Source of the DNA: Akkermansia sp.
GTDB taxonomy: Bacteria > Verrucomicrobiota > Verrucomicrobiia > Verrucomicrobiales > Akkermansiaceae
DNA: 64,000 bases
Assembly (NCBI GenBank): GCA_030535875.1
Contig: JAUNRC010000002.1
Coordinates: forward strand, 1-64,000
Direction: 5' to 3'
Each line of letters opens with the position of its first letter. The first letter of the stretch is position 1. The notes beneath the pieces are model-generated. The model searched no databases. It was not told where the DNA came from and worked only from the letters and a program-made list of their open reading frames with translations. Positions 19,253-26,708 of this stretch are shown one piece after another. The position numbers were made by a program, and so were the translations under genes.

Positions 19253-19498
19253 ATGGTAGCAATCCGTCTCAACCGTCAGGGGTCCAAGGACCGTCCTTAC
19301 TACAAAATCGTTGTCGTTGACAGCCGCGCTCGCCGTGATGGCGACTTCATTGAACAGGTGGGTACCTACAACCCCATGGCCGAGGGTGAGAACTACACCC
19401 TGGATCTGGAGAAGGTTGAAAAGTGGATCTCTAATGGCGCCCAGCCTTCCGAGACTGTGGCCTCGATGATCAAGAAGGCTCGTGCCGCCAAGGCCTAA
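19253..19498 (+). CDS. rpsP: Small-subunit ribosomal protein bS16
   Basis: The 81-residue protein has the bS16 signature ([40 protein letters not shown]) and normal length. In many bacteria rpsP is followed by rimM, trmD and rplS. Here it stands alone, ended by a strong terminator 40 bases downstream, with an 80-base stretch between the -10 and the start codon. Autoregulation through that leader is possible but not shown. Confidence 0.97.
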
Positions 19499-19538: not shown

Positions 19539-19578
19539 AGGGGCTATCGTGTTGCATGCACGGTAGCCCCTCCTTTTT
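19539..19578 (+). terminator. rpsP terminator
   Basis: AGGGGCTATCGTG (19539-19551) pairs with CACGGTAGCCCCT (19559-19571) over 13 pairs including one U-G, with a seven-base loop. A T tract follows at 19574-19578. Confidence 0.85.
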
Positions 19579-19715
19579 GCTTTTCCGGGCAGAGTACGAG
19601 GGTGGAATTGGGTAGGAATGATGCCTGAGGATGTGGAATGAGGGATTTTGTTTGTGTTATTAAAATGTTATTTATTTCAGAAATATAAAAAGTTTGTGTT
19701 ATATAAGAAAAGGTC

Positions 19716-19743
19716 TTGACAAATGAAGCATGCTTCATAAAAT
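19716..19743 (+). promoter_or_regulatory. Promoter with MarR-type palindromic operator in its spacer
   Basis: TTGACA (19716-19721) and TAAAAT (19738-19743) are 16 bases apart. The spacer is filled by the perfect 16-base palindrome ATGAAGCATGCTTCAT (19723-19738). A dimeric repressor bound here would block RNA polymerase directly. The same half-sites recur at 20093-20110 before marR. Confidence 0.75.
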
Positions 19744-19757
19744 ACCTGTCAGACAGT

Positions 19758-20015
19758 ATGCAAAAAGAGAGATATATAACCCGTTACGGGCAGGAAAAAG
19801 GGCAGGGCTACACCTTTCGGGGGTGGCGGCTTTGCATCACACGAGAAGGTGAGCGATTTGTGCGGTACTTTTCGGATTTGAAAGCCGGTGGCGCAGAGAA
19901 AGGGCTGGAACAGGCGGTCCGGATGCGTGATGAAATGATGCGCGAACTTGCGGGGGACGGAGCGGATTACAAGGAGATTTTTAATCGTTATCGACGCTTG
20001 GGAAATGAGTGTTAG
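19758..20015 (+). CDS. Small AP2-like DNA-binding protein
   Basis: The 85-residue product resembles an AP2/integrase-arm DNA-binding domain. It has a three-strand region with GYTFRGWRLCITREGERFVRYFSD, then a helix EKGLEQAVRMRDEMMREL, matching the usual strand-strand-strand-helix layout (G-W on strand 1 and A-x-x-x-R in the helix). No catalytic domain is attached. The ATG at 19758 is used because the upstream TTG lies inside the -35. It is controlled by the palindrome shared with the marR promoter, so it probably belongs to the same regulon. It may be an accessory regulator or a stress-linked small protein. Function is inferred only. Confidence 0.5.
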   Translation: MQKERYITRYGQEKGQGYTFRGWRLCITREGERFVRYFSDLKAGGAEKGLEQAVRMRDEMMRELAGDGADYKEIFNRYRRLGNEC

Positions 20016-20053
20016 GATGAGGCCTGAAGTCACAAAAAGTTTGCTGAAAAGTC

Positions 20054-20110
20054 TTGACTTTCGAGGGTGGGATGATATACTCCTCTGTGTGATATGAAGC
20101 GTGCTTCATA
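20054..20110 (+). promoter_or_regulatory. marR-efflux operon promoter and downstream operator
   Basis: TTGACT (20054-20059) and TATACT (20076-20081) are 16 bases apart. The 18-base inverted repeat TATGAAGCGTGCTTCATA (20093-20110) begins just after the expected +1. It shares both half-sites with the palindrome at 19723-19738. Its position suits a roadblock-type autoregulatory operator for the MarR protein encoded next. Confidence 0.8.
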
Positions 20111-20132: not shown

Positions 20133-20555
20133 ATGAATAATAGGCAAGCCATCTCGTTTCTGATGAAGTTGATAGCGGACCGCGTATCGACGCTTTTTTC
20201 CTTGCGCGCGGAAGTGCCTGTCACGGCGGCGCAGGGGCGTCTGCTGATGTACTTGGAGGCGCGGGGCGGCGGTCCTGTATCGCAGAGAGATATTGAGCAG
20301 TACCTGAATGTGTCGCATACGACGGCGAAGGGCTTGTTGCAGCGCTTGGAAGAGAAGGGTTTTGTGCGAACGGCTTTTGATGATAGTGATGGCCGAGTGA
20401 AAAACGCGTACATAACGGAAAGGGCACGTGAAAGCCGCGACGCGCTTTCTCAACATATAGATTCCATCACGGCACAGATGATGGATGGAATGAGCGAGGC
20501 GGAAGAACAACAACTGTTTGACTTGTTGCGCCGAGTGTACAGAAACATTAAATGA
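20133..20555 (+). CDS. MarR-family transcriptional regulator of the efflux operon
   Basis: The 140-residue protein is a winged-helix MarR-type dimer. Residues about 30-100 give the DNA-binding region (PVTAAQGRLLMYLE, VSQRDIEQYLNVSHTTAKGLLQRLEEKGFV, then a wing DDSDGRVKNAYIT with the conserved D-x-R-x-K pattern). Terminal helices for dimerisation flank it. It is the first gene of an operon with the three RND efflux genes, 24 bases before the adaptor gene. It most likely represses its own promoter and that of the AP2-like gene through the shared palindrome, and is released by a small ligand. Confidence 0.9.
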   Translation: MNNRQAISFLMKLIADRVSTLFSLRAEVPVTAAQGRLLMYLEARGGGPVSQRDIEQYLNVSHTTAKGLLQRLEEKGFVRTAFDDSDGRVKNAYITERARESRDALSQHIDSITAQMMDGMSEAEEQQLFDLLRRVYRNIK

Positions 20556-20579: not shown

Positions 20580-22013
20580 ATGAAAGCGAAACAGATAGTA
20601 ATGATGGCCCTGAGCGGGGTGGTTGTAACCGGACTGACCGGTTGTGGTGATAGTGAGGATGGAAAGCCCGGTTTTTTTGCCCGAGTTTACATTGACTTTT
20701 TAGGGGGCGAGAAGCCGCAGCAAAAGCAGGGCATGCCCCCCTTGAAGGTGAGTGTGATGAAGCTGCAACAGCAGGACGTGCCGGTATACTCCACATGGTT
20801 CGGTCAGTTGCGCGGTACGGAGCAGGCTGACATTAAGCCGGAGGTCAGCGGTAAGATTGTACAGAAGGTTTATATCGATGGTTCTCCCTGCGAAAAAGGA
20901 GAGGTGCTTTTCCGCATTGATGATGTGACCTACAAGGCCGCAGTTGATATGGCTGCTGCCAATCTCGAGGCAGCCAAGGCCGCTGTGCTTCAGGCTGAGG
21001 TGGTCGATGCGCAGGCCGAGCAGGACCTTGCTCGCTTTAGCGAACTGGTGAAGAGCGGCTCTGTCTCCGACAAGACCTTCCGCGATGCCGAGCATGCCAA
21101 GAAGCGTGCCGTCGCTGCACTGGCTGCCGCCCATGCTCAGGTGAAGCAGGCTCAGGCTGCACTGGCGAACGCTCAGGTTAATTTGGATCGCTGCACCATC
21201 CGTGCTCCCTTCGACGGCTATGCTTCGGCCTCGACTGTCAGCGTAGGTGACCATGTGGCGCCGGGTGCCATCACGCTTACTCGCATGAGTGCGATTGACC
21301 CCATTCGTGTGGACTTTGTGGTGACCGGCAAGCATGTGTTGGATATCGTCACTCAGACGAACTTCCGTGCCGGGGAGAACATGGATGCTCCTTTCACGGA
21401 GTTTGACGTTATTCTTGAAGATGGCTCTCTCTATGGTGAGAAGGGCGTTGTAAAGACCATGGACAGTGAGGTGAACACCTCTACCGGCACCGTGAACTTC
21501 ATCGGTGAAATTCCTAACAACGAGTTGCGACTGCGCTCCGGTGCCTCCGTTCAGGTACGTGCTAAGGTCAGTGAGGTGAAAGATGCTTTCCTTGTTCCCA
21601 AGGGCGCAATTCTTTCGACCATGAACCACCGTTTCATTTATGTGGTGGGCCCGGACAACCAGCCTTATGGCATAGATGTTATCCTAGGGCGTGAGATTGA
21701 GCTTGAAATGCCCAGCGGTGACGGCACAGCCGTCATGCCCATGCAGGTGGTAACGGCTCGTCCGATTGCCGGTGAGAACGATGAAATGCTCGACTTGCCC
21801 GCTATCCTGAAGAACATCGGATATGATAATCCTTTGGAGGCTCCCGTCATTGTAGAGGGTGGTCAGATGGCTCAGATTTATGCCAATATCAATATCGGCA
21901 TGAAGAAGGCCGGTGCCCCTGCCGGGTTCGCCGTGATTGCTCCCAATCCGGCTCCGTATGATTACCGAAAACCCCTTTCCACCACTCCCTCGGTAACAGC
22001 TAAGTCCGAGTAA
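20580..22013 (+). CDS. RND efflux periplasmic adaptor lipoprotein (AcrA/MexA-type)
   Basis: The 477-residue membrane fusion protein has a lipoprotein signal (GLTGC, cleavage before Cys22), a biotinyl-lipoyl-like domain (GTEQADIKPEVSGKIVQKVY, later RAPFDGYASA), a long alpha-hairpin rich in Ala and Gln (about 115-205) and beta-barrel domains (PIRVDFVV, LRLRSGASVQVRAKV). It bridges the inner-membrane pump and the outer-membrane channel. The C-terminal tail is extended, about 80 residues longer than in E. coli AcrA. It is the second gene of the MarR-controlled operon. Confidence 0.93.
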   Translation: MKAKQIVMMALSGVVVTGLTGCGDSEDGKPGFFARVYIDFLGGEKPQQKQGMPPLKVSVMKLQQQDVPVYSTWFGQLRGTEQADIKPEVSGKIVQKVYIDGSPCEKGEVLFRIDDVTYKAAVDMAAANLEAAKAAVLQAEVVDAQAEQDLARFSELVKSGSVSDKTFRDAEHAKKRAVAALAAAHAQVKQAQAALANAQVNLDRCTIRAPFDGYASASTVSVGDHVAPGAITLTRMSAIDPIRVDFVVTGKHVLDIVTQTNFRAGENMDAPFTEFDVILEDGSLYGEKGVVKTMDSEVNTSTGTVNFIGEIPNNELRLRSGASVQVRAKVSEVKDAFLVPKGAILSTMNHRFIYVVGPDNQPYGIDVILGREIELEMPSGDGTAVMPMQVVTARPIAGENDEMLDLPAILKNIGYDNPLEAPVIVEGGQMAQIYANINIGMKKAGAPAGFAVIAPNPAPYDYRKPLSTTPSVTAKSE

Positions 22014-22050: not shown

Positions 22051-25000
22051 ATGAGTGCATATTTCATCAAACATCCGGTCATCGCTACGGTTATCGCCGT
22101 GCTGACTACCATGCTGGGTGTGGTCTGTATGGTCAATCTCCCTGTGGAGCAGTACCCTGAGATTACCCCCCGCACCATTAACCTCACAGCCGTCTACCCC
22201 GGTGCCGATGCTCAGGCCGTAGCCGACTCCGTCGGTACTCCCATCGAGCGCCAGATGAACGGCGTGAACCACATGGACTACATGACTTCGGTCTCGTCCA
22301 ATAACGGTGTGTACAACCTGCAGGTGGTGTTCGAACCCGGTTCCGATACCGATTTGGACCAGGTGCTCACCAACATGCGTTACGGTCAGGCCCAGTCTCA
22401 GGTGCCTACGGAGGTGCTTAATTCCGGCATTACCATTCGCCAGCAGCCGGGCTTGCCCCTCATGCTCTATTCGCTGACGTCCCCGGATGGGTCTTACGAT
22501 TCCGTTGACCTTGCGAACTACGCTCAGGTGAAGTTGTTGGACGAAATTAAGCGAGTACCCGGTGTGGGCGAGGTGACTGTCTACGGTGCCGGTCGTTATG
22601 CCATCCGTATATGGCTCAACACGGTGAAGATGTCCCATTTCGGCATTTCTCTTAACGAAGTGCAGGGTGCCATCCGTTTGCAGAACGTGACCAACCCCGG
22701 CGGTAAGGTCGGTGCCGACCCTGTTCCGGCCGGTCAGGAGACTACTGTGACTATTCGTACCGAGGGCCGACTTTCCACGCCTGAGCAGTTTGAGCAGATT
22801 ATTGTGCGCCAGAAAGGCGATGAAGTTGTTTATCTGAAAGATATTGCCACCATCGAGCTTGGTTCCGCGGACTATTCCGTTACCGGTCGTCTCAATCGTA
22901 AGCCTGCTGCCAGTGTGGTGATTTTCCAGTCTCCCGGTTCCAATGCCATCGACACCGTTGACCGCGTGAGCGCCCTGCTGGCAAGTAAAGCCTTGCCTCC
23001 CGGTATCGAGGGTAGCGTATCGCTCGACACGACGACATCGGTGCGTTACTCCATTGAGGAGATTAAGCAGACTTTCATCGAGGCTATCGTGCTGGTGGCT
23101 CTGGTGGTGTTCCTTTTCCTGCAAAGCTGGCGTGCGACGGTTATTCCCTTGATTGCCGTGCCGGTATCGCTTATTTCCACCTTCTGCGTGTTCCCGCTCT
23201 TGGGCTTTACGCTCAACACTATCTCTCTGCTGGGTATGGTGCTGGCTATTGGTCTGGTGGTGGACGATGCCATCGTGGTGGTGGAAGCTGTTCAGCACCA
23301 TATTGAGAAGGGGCTTAATCCGCGCATGGCTGCCTTTGCTGCCATGCAGGAGGTGAGCGGTCCCGTTATTGCCATTGCTTTGGTGCTGGCTGCCGTATTC
23401 CTTCCATCGCTCATGCTGGAGGGTATCACCGGTACGCTCTTTAAGCAGTTCGCCATCACCATTGCTATCTCGATGCTCATATCGGCCTTCAATGCTCTTA
23501 CTCTTTCGCCGGCACTTTGTGCTCTGATGCTTAAGAGCAAGGAGGAGGAGAATACCGAGCCGAAGAACATCCTGCGCCGCATCGTGTTCAAATTGAATCA
23601 TGGTCTGGCCAAGCCCTTCTTCCGCGTGTTCAACAAGTCTTATGATTGCACGGCCGGTGTGTATACACGTATTTGTGGCGGACTTGCCCGCAAGTTGGTC
23701 ATTTCCATGCCCATCCTGCTGTTACTCTGGGCAGCCATTGCCCCGGTGAGCAGCAAGGTACCCGGAGCCTTCCTGCCGGATGAGGACCAGGGCTTCCTGT
23801 TGGCTGCTCTGGTGATGAAGCCAGAGAACTCTCTGCAACGCTCCATGTCGGAGGCTATGAAGTTTGAGAATGCTCTTGCCGGTCCGGCGGATAACCCCGA
23901 CCCCGCTATTAAGAACCTGACTTCCGTGGTCGGCATCAATATCCTTAACATGGTGCAGACCCCCGGTGCTGCTATCGCTTTCGTTCAGCTTAAGGACTGG
24001 AGTGAGCGTGCGGAATCCGCCGAGCAGGTGCAGAAGCGTCTGACCGCTCGCTGCGCTATGGCCGGACTTGACGGTATTTCTATGGTTCTTATCCCGCCGG
24101 CCATTCCCGGTGTAGGTACGGCTAACGGTGTGACAATGGTTATCACGGACCTTGAAGGTCAGGGCGTAGATTTCCTTTACGGTCAGGTTAAGAAGTTTAA
24201 TGAACTGGCGGCTGCCCGTCCTGAAGTGGCGATGTGCCGTGATATGATGATGGCGGACGTGCCCCAGAAGTACCTCACGCTGGATCGTGCCAAGTGCCAG
24301 AAGTATGGTGTGAGCATAGGCGATGCCTACGGCGTGCTGGCTTCTTACTATGGCTCGTCCTTCGTGAACTTCTTCAATGCCTTCGGCCAGCAGTGGCAGG
24401 TGTTCATGCAGGCTCGCGGTGCTGACCGCAAGAACCTCGACCAGATGAACGGCTTCTTTGTTATCAATAAGAAGGGAGAGCGCGTGCCGCTCGACTCCAT
24501 TGTGAGCATCAGCGATATCGCCGATACGGAGTTCGTGATGCACCACAACGGCTACAATGCCGCTAAACTGAATGTCATGCCCAAGCCCGGTTACTCCACT
24601 CAGCAGTTGATGGAGGCTCTGGAAGAGGTGTTCGAGCAGAATATGGACAAGACGAAAGTCGGTATGGACTATCAGGATATGTCCTTCCAGGAGAATAAGG
24701 TGCGCAATAGTACCGGCCTGGGAACAATCTTCCTGATGTCAGGTTTCTTTGCCTTCCTCATTCTCGTGGCTCTTTATGAGAAGTGGACCTTGCCCATATC
24801 GGTGTTCATGACCGTGCCTATCGCCGTGCTCGGTGCCTACGTCGGACTTTATGTCTGGAACCTTGACCTGACCTTGTATGCTCAGGTGGGTCTGATTATG
24901 CTCGTAGGTCTGGCGGCCAAGAATGCCATTCTCATCGTTGAGTTTGCCAATCTGGAAATGGAACGAGGGAAGGGATTGATGGAGGCTACGCTGACGGCTG

Positions 25001-25290
25001 CACGTCTGCGACTGCGCCCCATTATCATGACCTCTCTGGCATTCATTCTGGGCTGTATTCCTTTGGTGCTCTCCAGCGGCTCCGGTGCTCTGGCCCGCAA
25101 CGCTATCGGTGTGGTGGTGGTTGCCGGTATGACGGTGGCTACGCTGGTGGGTGTGTTCCTTATTCCCTGTTCTTATGTGTTCATCATGCGTCTCTTCCGC
25201 ATTCGTTTCGAGAAGAAGACCCTCTCGGCGGATCCGGATGAGGAGGGTGCTCGCCGCTACCTCGTTGAGCATTCTGATGATGAAGCTTGA
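22051..25290 (+). CDS. RND efflux inner-membrane transporter (AcrB/HAE1 type)
   Basis: The 1079-residue proton-driven pump has the expected twelve-helix RND layout. It begins with MSAYFIKHPVIATVIAVL, the Asp-Asp pair of the proton relay is in GLVVDDAIVVVE, and the matching Lys is in GLAAKNAILIVEFA. The periplasmic docking and porter loops are of normal size. It should export hydrophobic or amphiphilic drugs. The drug range cannot be read from sequence. It lies between its adaptor and outer-membrane partner genes, with short gaps of 37 and 35 bases. Confidence 0.96.
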   Translation: MSAYFIKHPVIATVIAVLTTMLGVVCMVNLPVEQYPEITPRTINLTAVYPGADAQAVADSVGTPIERQMNGVNHMDYMTSVSSNNGVYNLQVVFEPGSDTDLDQVLTNMRYGQAQSQVPTEVLNSGITIRQQPGLPLMLYSLTSPDGSYDSVDLANYAQVKLLDEIKRVPGVGEVTVYGAGRYAIRIWLNTVKMSHFGISLNEVQGAIRLQNVTNPGGKVGADPVPAGQETTVTIRTEGRLSTPEQFEQIIVRQKGDEVVYLKDIATIELGSADYSVTGRLNRKPAASVVIFQSPGSNAIDTVDRVSALLASKALPPGIEGSVSLDTTTSVRYSIEEIKQTFIEAIVLVALVVFLFLQSWRATVIPLIAVPVSLISTFCVFPLLGFTLNTISLLGMVLAIGLVVDDAIVVVEAVQHHIEKGLNPRMAAFAAMQEVSGPVIAIALVLAAVFLPSLMLEGITGTLFKQFAITIAISMLISAFNALTLSPALCALMLKSKEEENTEPKNILRRIVFKLNHGLAKPFFRVFNKSYDCTAGVYTRICGGLARKLVISMPILLLLWAAIAPVSSKVPGAFLPDEDQGFLLAALVMKPENSLQRSMSEAMKFENALAGPADNPDPAIKNLTSVVGINILNMVQTPGAAIAFVQLKDWSERAESAEQVQKRLTARCAMAGLDGISMVLIPPAIPGVGTANGVTMVITDLEGQGVDFLYGQVKKFNELAAARPEVAMCRDMMMADVPQKYLTLDRAKCQKYGVSIGDAYGVLASYYGSSFVNFFNAFGQQWQVFMQARGADRKNLDQMNGFFVINKKGERVPLDSIVSISDIADTEFVMHHNGYNAAKLNVMPKPGYSTQQLMEALEEVFEQNMDKTKVGMDYQDMSFQENKVRNSTGLGTIFLMSGFFAFLILVALYEKWTLPISVFMTVPIAVLGAYVGLYVWNLDLTLYAQVGLIMLVGLAAKNAILIVEFANLEMERGKGLMEATLTAARLRLRPIIMTSLAFILGCIPLVLSSGSGALARNAIGVVVVAGMTVATLVGVFLIPCSYVFIMRLFRIRFEKKTLSADPDEEGARRYLVEHSDDEA

Positions 25291-25325: not shown

Positions 25326-26708
25326 ATGAAACAAAGCGCATTACTGTTCCTTGCCGGTGCGGTGGTTGTGACCACAGCCTGTACGCTCGGCCCGAACTGG
25401 GAGAAACCTCAGATGGAAGTACCCGCCGTGTTCCGCGGTGCCGGAATGGGTGAAGGCAACATGGCCGACTTGCCTTGGCAGTCTGTCATGAAGGATAAAA
25501 ATCTTCAGGCTCTGCTGAATGATGTCTTTACGGCAAATCGCAGCCTTCAGGCCTTGCAGCACAATGTCGAGGCTGCTCGCCAGTACATTACCATTGCACG
25601 TTCTCCGCTCTTCCCCAGTCTGGGTTATATGGGGTCGGTGAATAAGGGGGTGAATACTTCCGGTGGTACAGCTATTGTCGATACCGGTGGTGCTTCCACC
25701 AAGTCCGGCATGGCCGGTGTAACCGCAAGTTGGGAGCTTGACCTCTGGGGTAAGACTCGCCGCGCGGCTGAGAGTGCCGAGGCCTCCGCTGAGGAAGCTC
25801 AGGAGCAGTTGAACAATCTCCGCGTGTCGCTCATGCGTCAGGCCGCTACCGGATATTTACAGCTTATCATGCTTGATGAGCAGCTTCGCATTACTCGTGA
25901 GAGCGTGGAATCTTATCGCGATACGTTGAAGCTCTTCAATGACCAGTTTAAGGAAGGCGTGGTAGACGGCTTGCAGGTTGCCAGTGCTGAGGCTGCACTT
26001 GCCTCCGCCGAGGCCGAGGCTCCTGCTCTGGAAATGCAGATTGCTGAGTTGGAGAACTCTCTGAGCATGCTTGCCGGTCGCGCACCGGGGCATATCGCTC
26101 GTAGCGGTAGCCTGCGTTCCTATATGAATGCCTCTAAGGTGGCAGCCGGCATACCGGCCGATGTGCTTGCCCGTCGTCCTGATATTCGCGCCAAGGAGCA
26201 GGCTCTGCGCGCTGCCAATGCTGAAGTCGGTGTGGCTATTGCCAGTTATTTCCCCACCATCAGCCTGACCGGTGCCGGTGGCTATGCTTTCCCCGGATTG
26301 GATGATGCGGTGGATGGTTGGGGCATTGGTGCCAGTCTGACAGGCCCGCTTTTCCAAGGTCATCGTCTGACGGCCAATGAGGCTGCTAAGAAAGAGGAAT
26401 TCCTTGCAGCAAAGGCTGATTATGAGCAAGCTGTGTTGGCTGCTCTTTCGGAGGTTTCGACCACGCTGACTCAGCGTAAGAAACTCCGTGCTGTTATCAG
26501 CCGTCAGGAGGCCGCTGTCGCAGCCTACGAGCAGTCTGTTTCTCTTGCCAAGCAGCGCTATAAGGAGGGTTATTCCGCTTACTTTGAGGTGTTGGATAAT
26601 CAGTTGCGACTCTTCCCCATGCAGAAGCAGCTTGCCTCCTATCGCTTCCAGTATGCTGCCTGCATACCCACTCTTTACACTCAGCTCGGTGGCGGATGGA
26701 AGGAGTGA
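25326..26708 (+). CDS. Outer-membrane efflux lipoprotein (NodT/OprM type)
   Basis: The 460-residue protein is a TolC-like channel with a lipoprotein signal (VVVTTAC) followed by LGPNWEKPQMEVPAVF, typical of the NodT family. Two repeated coiled-coil regions are visible (ANRSLQALQHNVEAARQY and QRYKEGYSAYFEVLDNQ are landmarks). The sequence ADVLARRPDIRAKEQALRAANAEVGVAIA is the usual family signature, given here in part as PADVLARRPDIRAKEQ. It completes the tripartite pump and ends in a strong terminator. Confidence 0.94.
   Translation: MKQSALLFLAGAVVVTTACTLGPNWEKPQMEVPAVFRGAGMGEGNMADLPWQSVMKDKNLQALLNDVFTANRSLQALQHNVEAARQYITIARSPLFPSLGYMGSVNKGVNTSGGTAIVDTGGASTKSGMAGVTASWELDLWGKTRRAAESAEASAEEAQEQLNNLRVSLMRQAATGYLQLIMLDEQLRITRESVESYRDTLKLFNDQFKEGVVDGLQVASAEAALASAEAEAPALEMQIAELENSLSMLAGRAPGHIARSGSLRSYMNASKVAAGIPADVLARRPDIRAKEQALRAANAEVGVAIASYFPTISLTGAGGYAFPGLDDAVDGWGIGASLTGPLFQGHRLTANEAAKKEEFLAAKADYEQAVLAALSEVSTTLTQRKKLRAVISRQEAAVAAYEQSVSLAKQRYKEGYSAYFEVLDNQLRLFPMQKQLASYRFQYAACIPTLYTQLGGGWKE

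Follow-up and report, generated by a model that had tools for sequence, protein, structure and literature searches.

One palindromic operator at two promoters of a marR-efflux locus in Akkermansia and its probable reader

Why does the same palindrome recur at two adjacent promoters ahead of an efflux operon, and which protein is likely to read it? The question is raised by a 64,000-nucleotide stretch of an Akkermansia sp. genome (GenBank assembly GCA_030535875.1, contig JAUNRC010000002.1, positions 1 to 64,000 of the forward strand), hereafter the window, in which a short AP2-like gene, a marR-family gene and the genes of a tripartite RND pump follow one another (Table 1).

Two copies of one palindrome, each at a promoter

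The two copies are placed differently with respect to their promoters. Operator O1 fills the spacer of P1, the promoter of the AP2-like gene, and overlaps the -10 element by one base, its final T doubling as the opening T of TAAAAT. The 16-mer core of O2 begins 12 nt past the -10 element of P2, the promoter of the marR-efflux operon, at about +5 or +6 of the predicted transcript; the transcription starts of P1 and P2 are expected near 19750 and 20088. Both placements, O1 within the spacer and O2 just past the expected transcription start, had been proposed in a sequence-only reading of the window, and both proved exact to the base.

Table 1. Features of the marR-efflux locus (window coordinates)
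Feature	Coordinates	Strand	Description
Intrinsic-terminator-like hairpin	19539..19571	+	parts upstream small ORF (19253-19498) from P1
P1, promoter of AP2-like gene	19716..19743	+	TTGACA 19716-19721, 16 nt, TAAAAT 19738-19743; consensus scan, 11/12 matches
O1, operator	19723..19738	.	16-bp palindrome ATGAAGCATGCTTCAT; fills P1 spacer
AP2-like gene	19758..20015	+	85 aa; very short leader; orthologs align from ATG at 19758; AP2-type fold by model
P2, promoter of marR-efflux	20054..20081	+	TTGACT 20054-20059, 16 nt, TATACT 20076-20081
O2, operator	20093..20110	.	18-bp palindrome TATGAAGCGTGCTTCATA = TATGAAGC-GT-GCTTCATA; genus-wide before marR
marR-family regulator	20133..20555	+	140 aa; PF12802 E 7.3e-14, 52.1 bits vs cut-off 27; probable reader of O1 and O2
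RND periplasmic adaptor	20580..22013	+	TIGR01730 over cut-off
RND permease (AcrB family)	22051..25290	+	PF00873 E 3.8e-277
Outer-membrane efflux protein (NodT type)	25326..26708	+	PF02321; TIGR01845 over cut-off

O1 and O2 are the only places in the window that fit the operator word without mismatches, and they are also the only ones in the entire genome sequence (2,075,511 bases; 2.08 Mb) when one mismatch is allowed. By our own arithmetic, about 0.01 exact matches to the 14 fixed bases are expected per genome of such size, so that two sites within 371 bp are far beyond chance. Random occurrence of the word across the genome, which by the sequence-only reading would have spoken against the operator, is excluded by these two sites at one mismatch or fewer. 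At two mismatches, 14 further places were found in the same genome; all eight that were inspected lie inside long ORFs, and a larger regulon was rejected on these grounds. One intergenic operator word, with no clear target, was identified in another genome (L043). Rfam yielded two chance matches only, both below threshold, and in the collection of papers searched, none of relevance to an Akkermansia MarR operator was found.

Several other details of the P1 region were noted. A TTG at 19716 was considered as the start codon of the AP2-like ORF and rejected, because it falls in the -35 element and the orthologs begin at the ATG at 19758. In the window, this ATG lies 14 nt past the -10 element (19738-19760), with almost no mRNA leader apparent, and in L107, L108 and L109 the distance is only about 6 nt, which would make the mRNA leaderless. 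Slightly upstream of P1, at 19660-19700, the sequence is AT-rich and contains TGTTA...TAACA inverted repeats; such a stretch is also present in L013, L015, L102, L104 and L106, with AAATGTTAAAAATTTAACATTT in several relatives, and may serve as an UP element or as another operator. An upstream element TGTTAAAA-N-TTTTAACA was sought in the genome of the window and not found.

The site before marR across the genus

Orthologs of marR were detected in 60 of the 76 genus genomes at E 1e-20 or better and were supplemented with 15 near relatives from a second collection; overall, 45 distinct loci were compared. Metagenome assemblies of Akkermansia, for the most part from the guts of ruminants (sheep, goat, cattle, water buffalo and roe deer), are the closest named genomes in which the locus occurs. 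The efflux genes encoding the adaptor, the permease and the outer-membrane protein lie behind marR in the same direction, the adaptor gene being next after marR in 35 of 35 loci. By sequence and by fold, the nearest solved relatives of the MarR protein include MepR of S. aureus, for which structures with DNA are available, and the fold also matches SlyA, although the structure model is modest (pLDDT 79, TM about 0.5-0.6). A MarR-family regulator with a palindrome at its own promoter and efflux genes behind it would fit an autorepressor of an efflux operon of the ordinary kind.

The palindrome or a recognizable variant precedes marR in all 45 loci, in 44 of them at three mismatches or fewer; the exception, L023, has the diverged operator TAGGTAGCATACTTCCTA with four mismatches. 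The operators of L023, L129, L131 and L132, with three or four mismatches each, count against the explanation that we prefer, namely, that the adjacent MarR reads both sites. The half-sites GAAGC and GCTTC are conserved at an identity of 0.97-0.98, compared with the nearly random values of 0.40 in the promoter spacer and 0.42 in the leader, whereas the two bases at the center vary; an outer T...A pair brings the full site to 18 bp. In the 35 loci where distances were measured, O2 always lies 9-14 nt from the -10 element (12 nt in 21 loci), and the distance to the start of the marR match varies from 23 to 65 nt. Because the former distance is fixed and the latter varies, O2 is a promoter-anchored DNA site. 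Some variants are themselves symmetric, AGGAAGC..GCTTCCT in L103 and GTGAAGC..GCTTCAC in L017, as expected for a dimeric reader. Together, the comparisons are strong evidence that the conserved palindrome is a real DNA operator of the marR-efflux promoter.

Being self-complementary and lying where it would be transcribed, O2 might instead fold into a hairpin within the leader RNA of marR. This reading is largely excluded, and we give it hardly any credence: O1, which has the same sequence, is located between the -35 and -10 elements and is not transcribed from P1, and thus should act as DNA; the distance of O2 is kept to the -10 element and not to the start codon; and common variants such as GTGAAGC..GCTTCCT break an outer pair.

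In another lineage (L026 and L027), one promoter has two sites: a second operator copy precedes the one at marR by about 76 nt and lies upstream of the -35 element of the marR promoter. Some of the diverged marR loci (L023, L025, L026, L027, L129, L131 and L132) have an ATAC-centered operator, such as TATGTAGCATACTTCCTATA, and in those that were translated (L023 and L025-L027), SHAT replaces SHTT in the recognition-helix region of MarR. Co-evolution of the site and the protein is a possible explanation.

The genome contains four other places matching the MarR_2 profile PF12802, and the palindrome might be read by one of these MarR-like proteins or by a regulator of another family, with the adjacent MarR being only a target. 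We consider this very unlikely. The operator is tied to the marR locus in every genome examined, and occurrences of RTGAAGCNNGCTTCMY outside this locus are few among the 76 genus genomes, mostly with other centers such as CCGG. Furthermore, 12 of the 16 genomes without a marR ortholog have no RTGAAGCNNGCTTCMY, although some ortholog-bearing genomes, which have variants, also lack the exact word. Given that the operator and the gene travel together and that the word is missing from most ortholog-free genomes, the adjacent MarR is most likely the reader of both O1 and O2.

The site at the AP2-like promoter in one subclade

Of the 45 loci, 25 have the AP2-like gene immediately ahead of marR and in the same orientation, but O1 is far more restricted than O2. 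Within the subclade to which the window belongs, 14 loci bear the AP2-like gene, and 13 of them have O1 in the promoter spacer with one mismatch at most; the remaining one, L100, has lost the left half and kept the right. In other lineages, none of the 11 loci with an AP2-like gene has O1: these do have a TTGAC-type promoter, and every word in the 90 nt before the gene differs from the operator at five or more positions. Across the 13 loci, the block comprising the -35 element, the operator and the -10 element is conserved at 0.91, compared with 0.64 before it and 0.53 after it; for the half-sites alone, the value is 0.99 vs 0.53-0.64 in the flanks, and TTGACAA...operator...AAAAT is retained in the relatives. 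In a tree of 35 MarR sequences, the inner forks of which are weakly supported, the O1-bearing loci cluster, requiring 3 changes compared to 10.2 by shuffle. The simplest account is that O1 was gained within this subclade of ruminant Akkermansia and that a loss followed. Looping between O1 and O2 was considered and is not supported: the spacing among the relatives is 370, 371, 380, 387, 388, 389, 399 or 484 bp, with no common helical phase.

For the AP2-like protein of the window itself, Pfam gave no match. Among its orthologs, weak profile matches were obtained, in 1 of 13 to PF00847 (AP2) at E 0.027 and in two to Arm-DNA-bind_3 (best E 7e-4). The structure model (pLDDT 84) consists of a three-stranded sheet packed on a helix, with the elements E7-14, E18-29, E32-39 and H46-64 at pLDDT of about 90. 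Among the structures that match best are the AP2 domain of PfSIP2 in a DNA complex (Z 7.1, rmsd 2.1 over 61 residues) and chains of the Toxoplasma mitoribosome (Z up to 7.3), which we take to include AP2-derived proteins; the next different fold is at Z 4.3. The model thus suggests an AP2-type fold, with the proviso that homology is not proven by a Z of about 7.

Within the genus, the AP2-like genes belong to a small group of paralogs to which no named family corresponds, with up to seven matches per genome (G000-G024). The genome of the window has seven matches; the other paralogs there lack the operator, given that this genome contains just the two copies of the operator word.

A putative MarR circuit and its known counterparts

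MarR-family dimers bind palindromes of such kind, and O1 and O2 are very probably the sites of one such dimer, encoded after O2, which would repress P1 and P2 and be released by a ligand, with tighter repression at O1 than at O2. Without the ligand, the dimer on O2, past the -10 element of P2, would repress the RND efflux operon together with marR itself, an autoregulatory arrangement. In the ruminant subclade, the second copy in the P1 spacer would extend this repression to the AP2-like gene, and a pump substrate or a toxic compound would free the dimer, inducing both units. Repression at O1 should be tight because the dimer would sit between the -35 and -10 elements; repression at O2 would be leakier, so that some MarR repressor is always made. 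At about +5 to +21, O2 falls within the polymerase footprint and may therefore block polymerase binding, too. The proposed split, with O1 blocking binding and O2 blocking clearance, is unproven.

The earlier claim that MarR controls both units with different stringency stands in part. It is backed by the single operator type at two promoters, the genus-wide link between the operator and marR, and the precedent of MepR for stringency, but the site at the AP2-like promoter is confined to the subclade, and the "both units" may partly be one. Indeed, the window has nothing resembling a terminator in the interval from the AP2-like gene to marR, so that P1 could read through into the marR-efflux genes; the gap is only 117 nt, and the gene order is kept in 25 loci. 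It is quite possible, and compatible with the dual-site repression by MarR, that AP2-like, marR and the efflux genes make up one operon with two promoters in which part of the role of O2 is that of a roadblock to polymerases reading through from P1. However, the terminators were sought with a simple consensus scan, and two relatives show weak stem-plus-T sites, one of which overlaps the -35 element of P2.

Repression of both promoters by the adjacent MarR would make up a circuit that is of an ordinary kind and conserved across the genus; its unusual point is the AP2-fold gene as an extra target. A cascade resembling that of E. coli MarA, an AraC-type regulator, is a rather doubtful extension: here, the AP2-fold protein would be a small transcription factor that is kept off by MarR and, when induced, adjusts further genes, perhaps the pump, with the subclade having wired it in by gaining the spacer operator. 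The comparative footprint provides an efflux-pump repressor in Akkermansia with a well-footprinted operator and places an AP2-fold protein in a probable drug-response circuit. The locus also appears to be a clean natural example of the reach of a repressor growing by one site, the copy at marR being genus-wide and that at the neighboring promoter being limited to one subclade and decayed in L100.

Among the known systems, mepRA of S. aureus similarly combines a MarR-family autorepressor with an adjacent efflux gene and has operators at two promoters, one covering the -35 and -10 elements and one just past the -10 element (PMC3617543). There, repression by MepR is tight over the -35 and -10 elements of mepA and weak at the mepR start just past the -10 element (PMC3617543), and by this analogy, it is reasonable to expect two stringencies at O1 and O2. 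The systems differ in that the MepR motif is GTTAG, in contrast to GAAGC-N2-GCTTC here, and in that MepA is a MATE pump with the tight site, whereas here the tripartite RND pump shares the promoter of the repressor, with the start-site operator, and the AP2-like gene takes the spacer operator. With neither a GTTAG-type operator nor a MATE target, the regulator was rejected as a MepR ortholog. MarR of E. coli is an autorepressor with two binding sites in its own control region (PMC8614764). The Akkermansia regulator would resemble that of marRAB in being an autorepressor with two sites that controls the gene for another DNA-binding regulator, but in marRAB, both sites are in one promoter region, and the partner here is the AP2-like protein. 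A MarR-family repressor of an RND pump is found in MexR/mexAB-oprM of Pseudomonas as well, where the genes are arranged divergently and the motif is another one.
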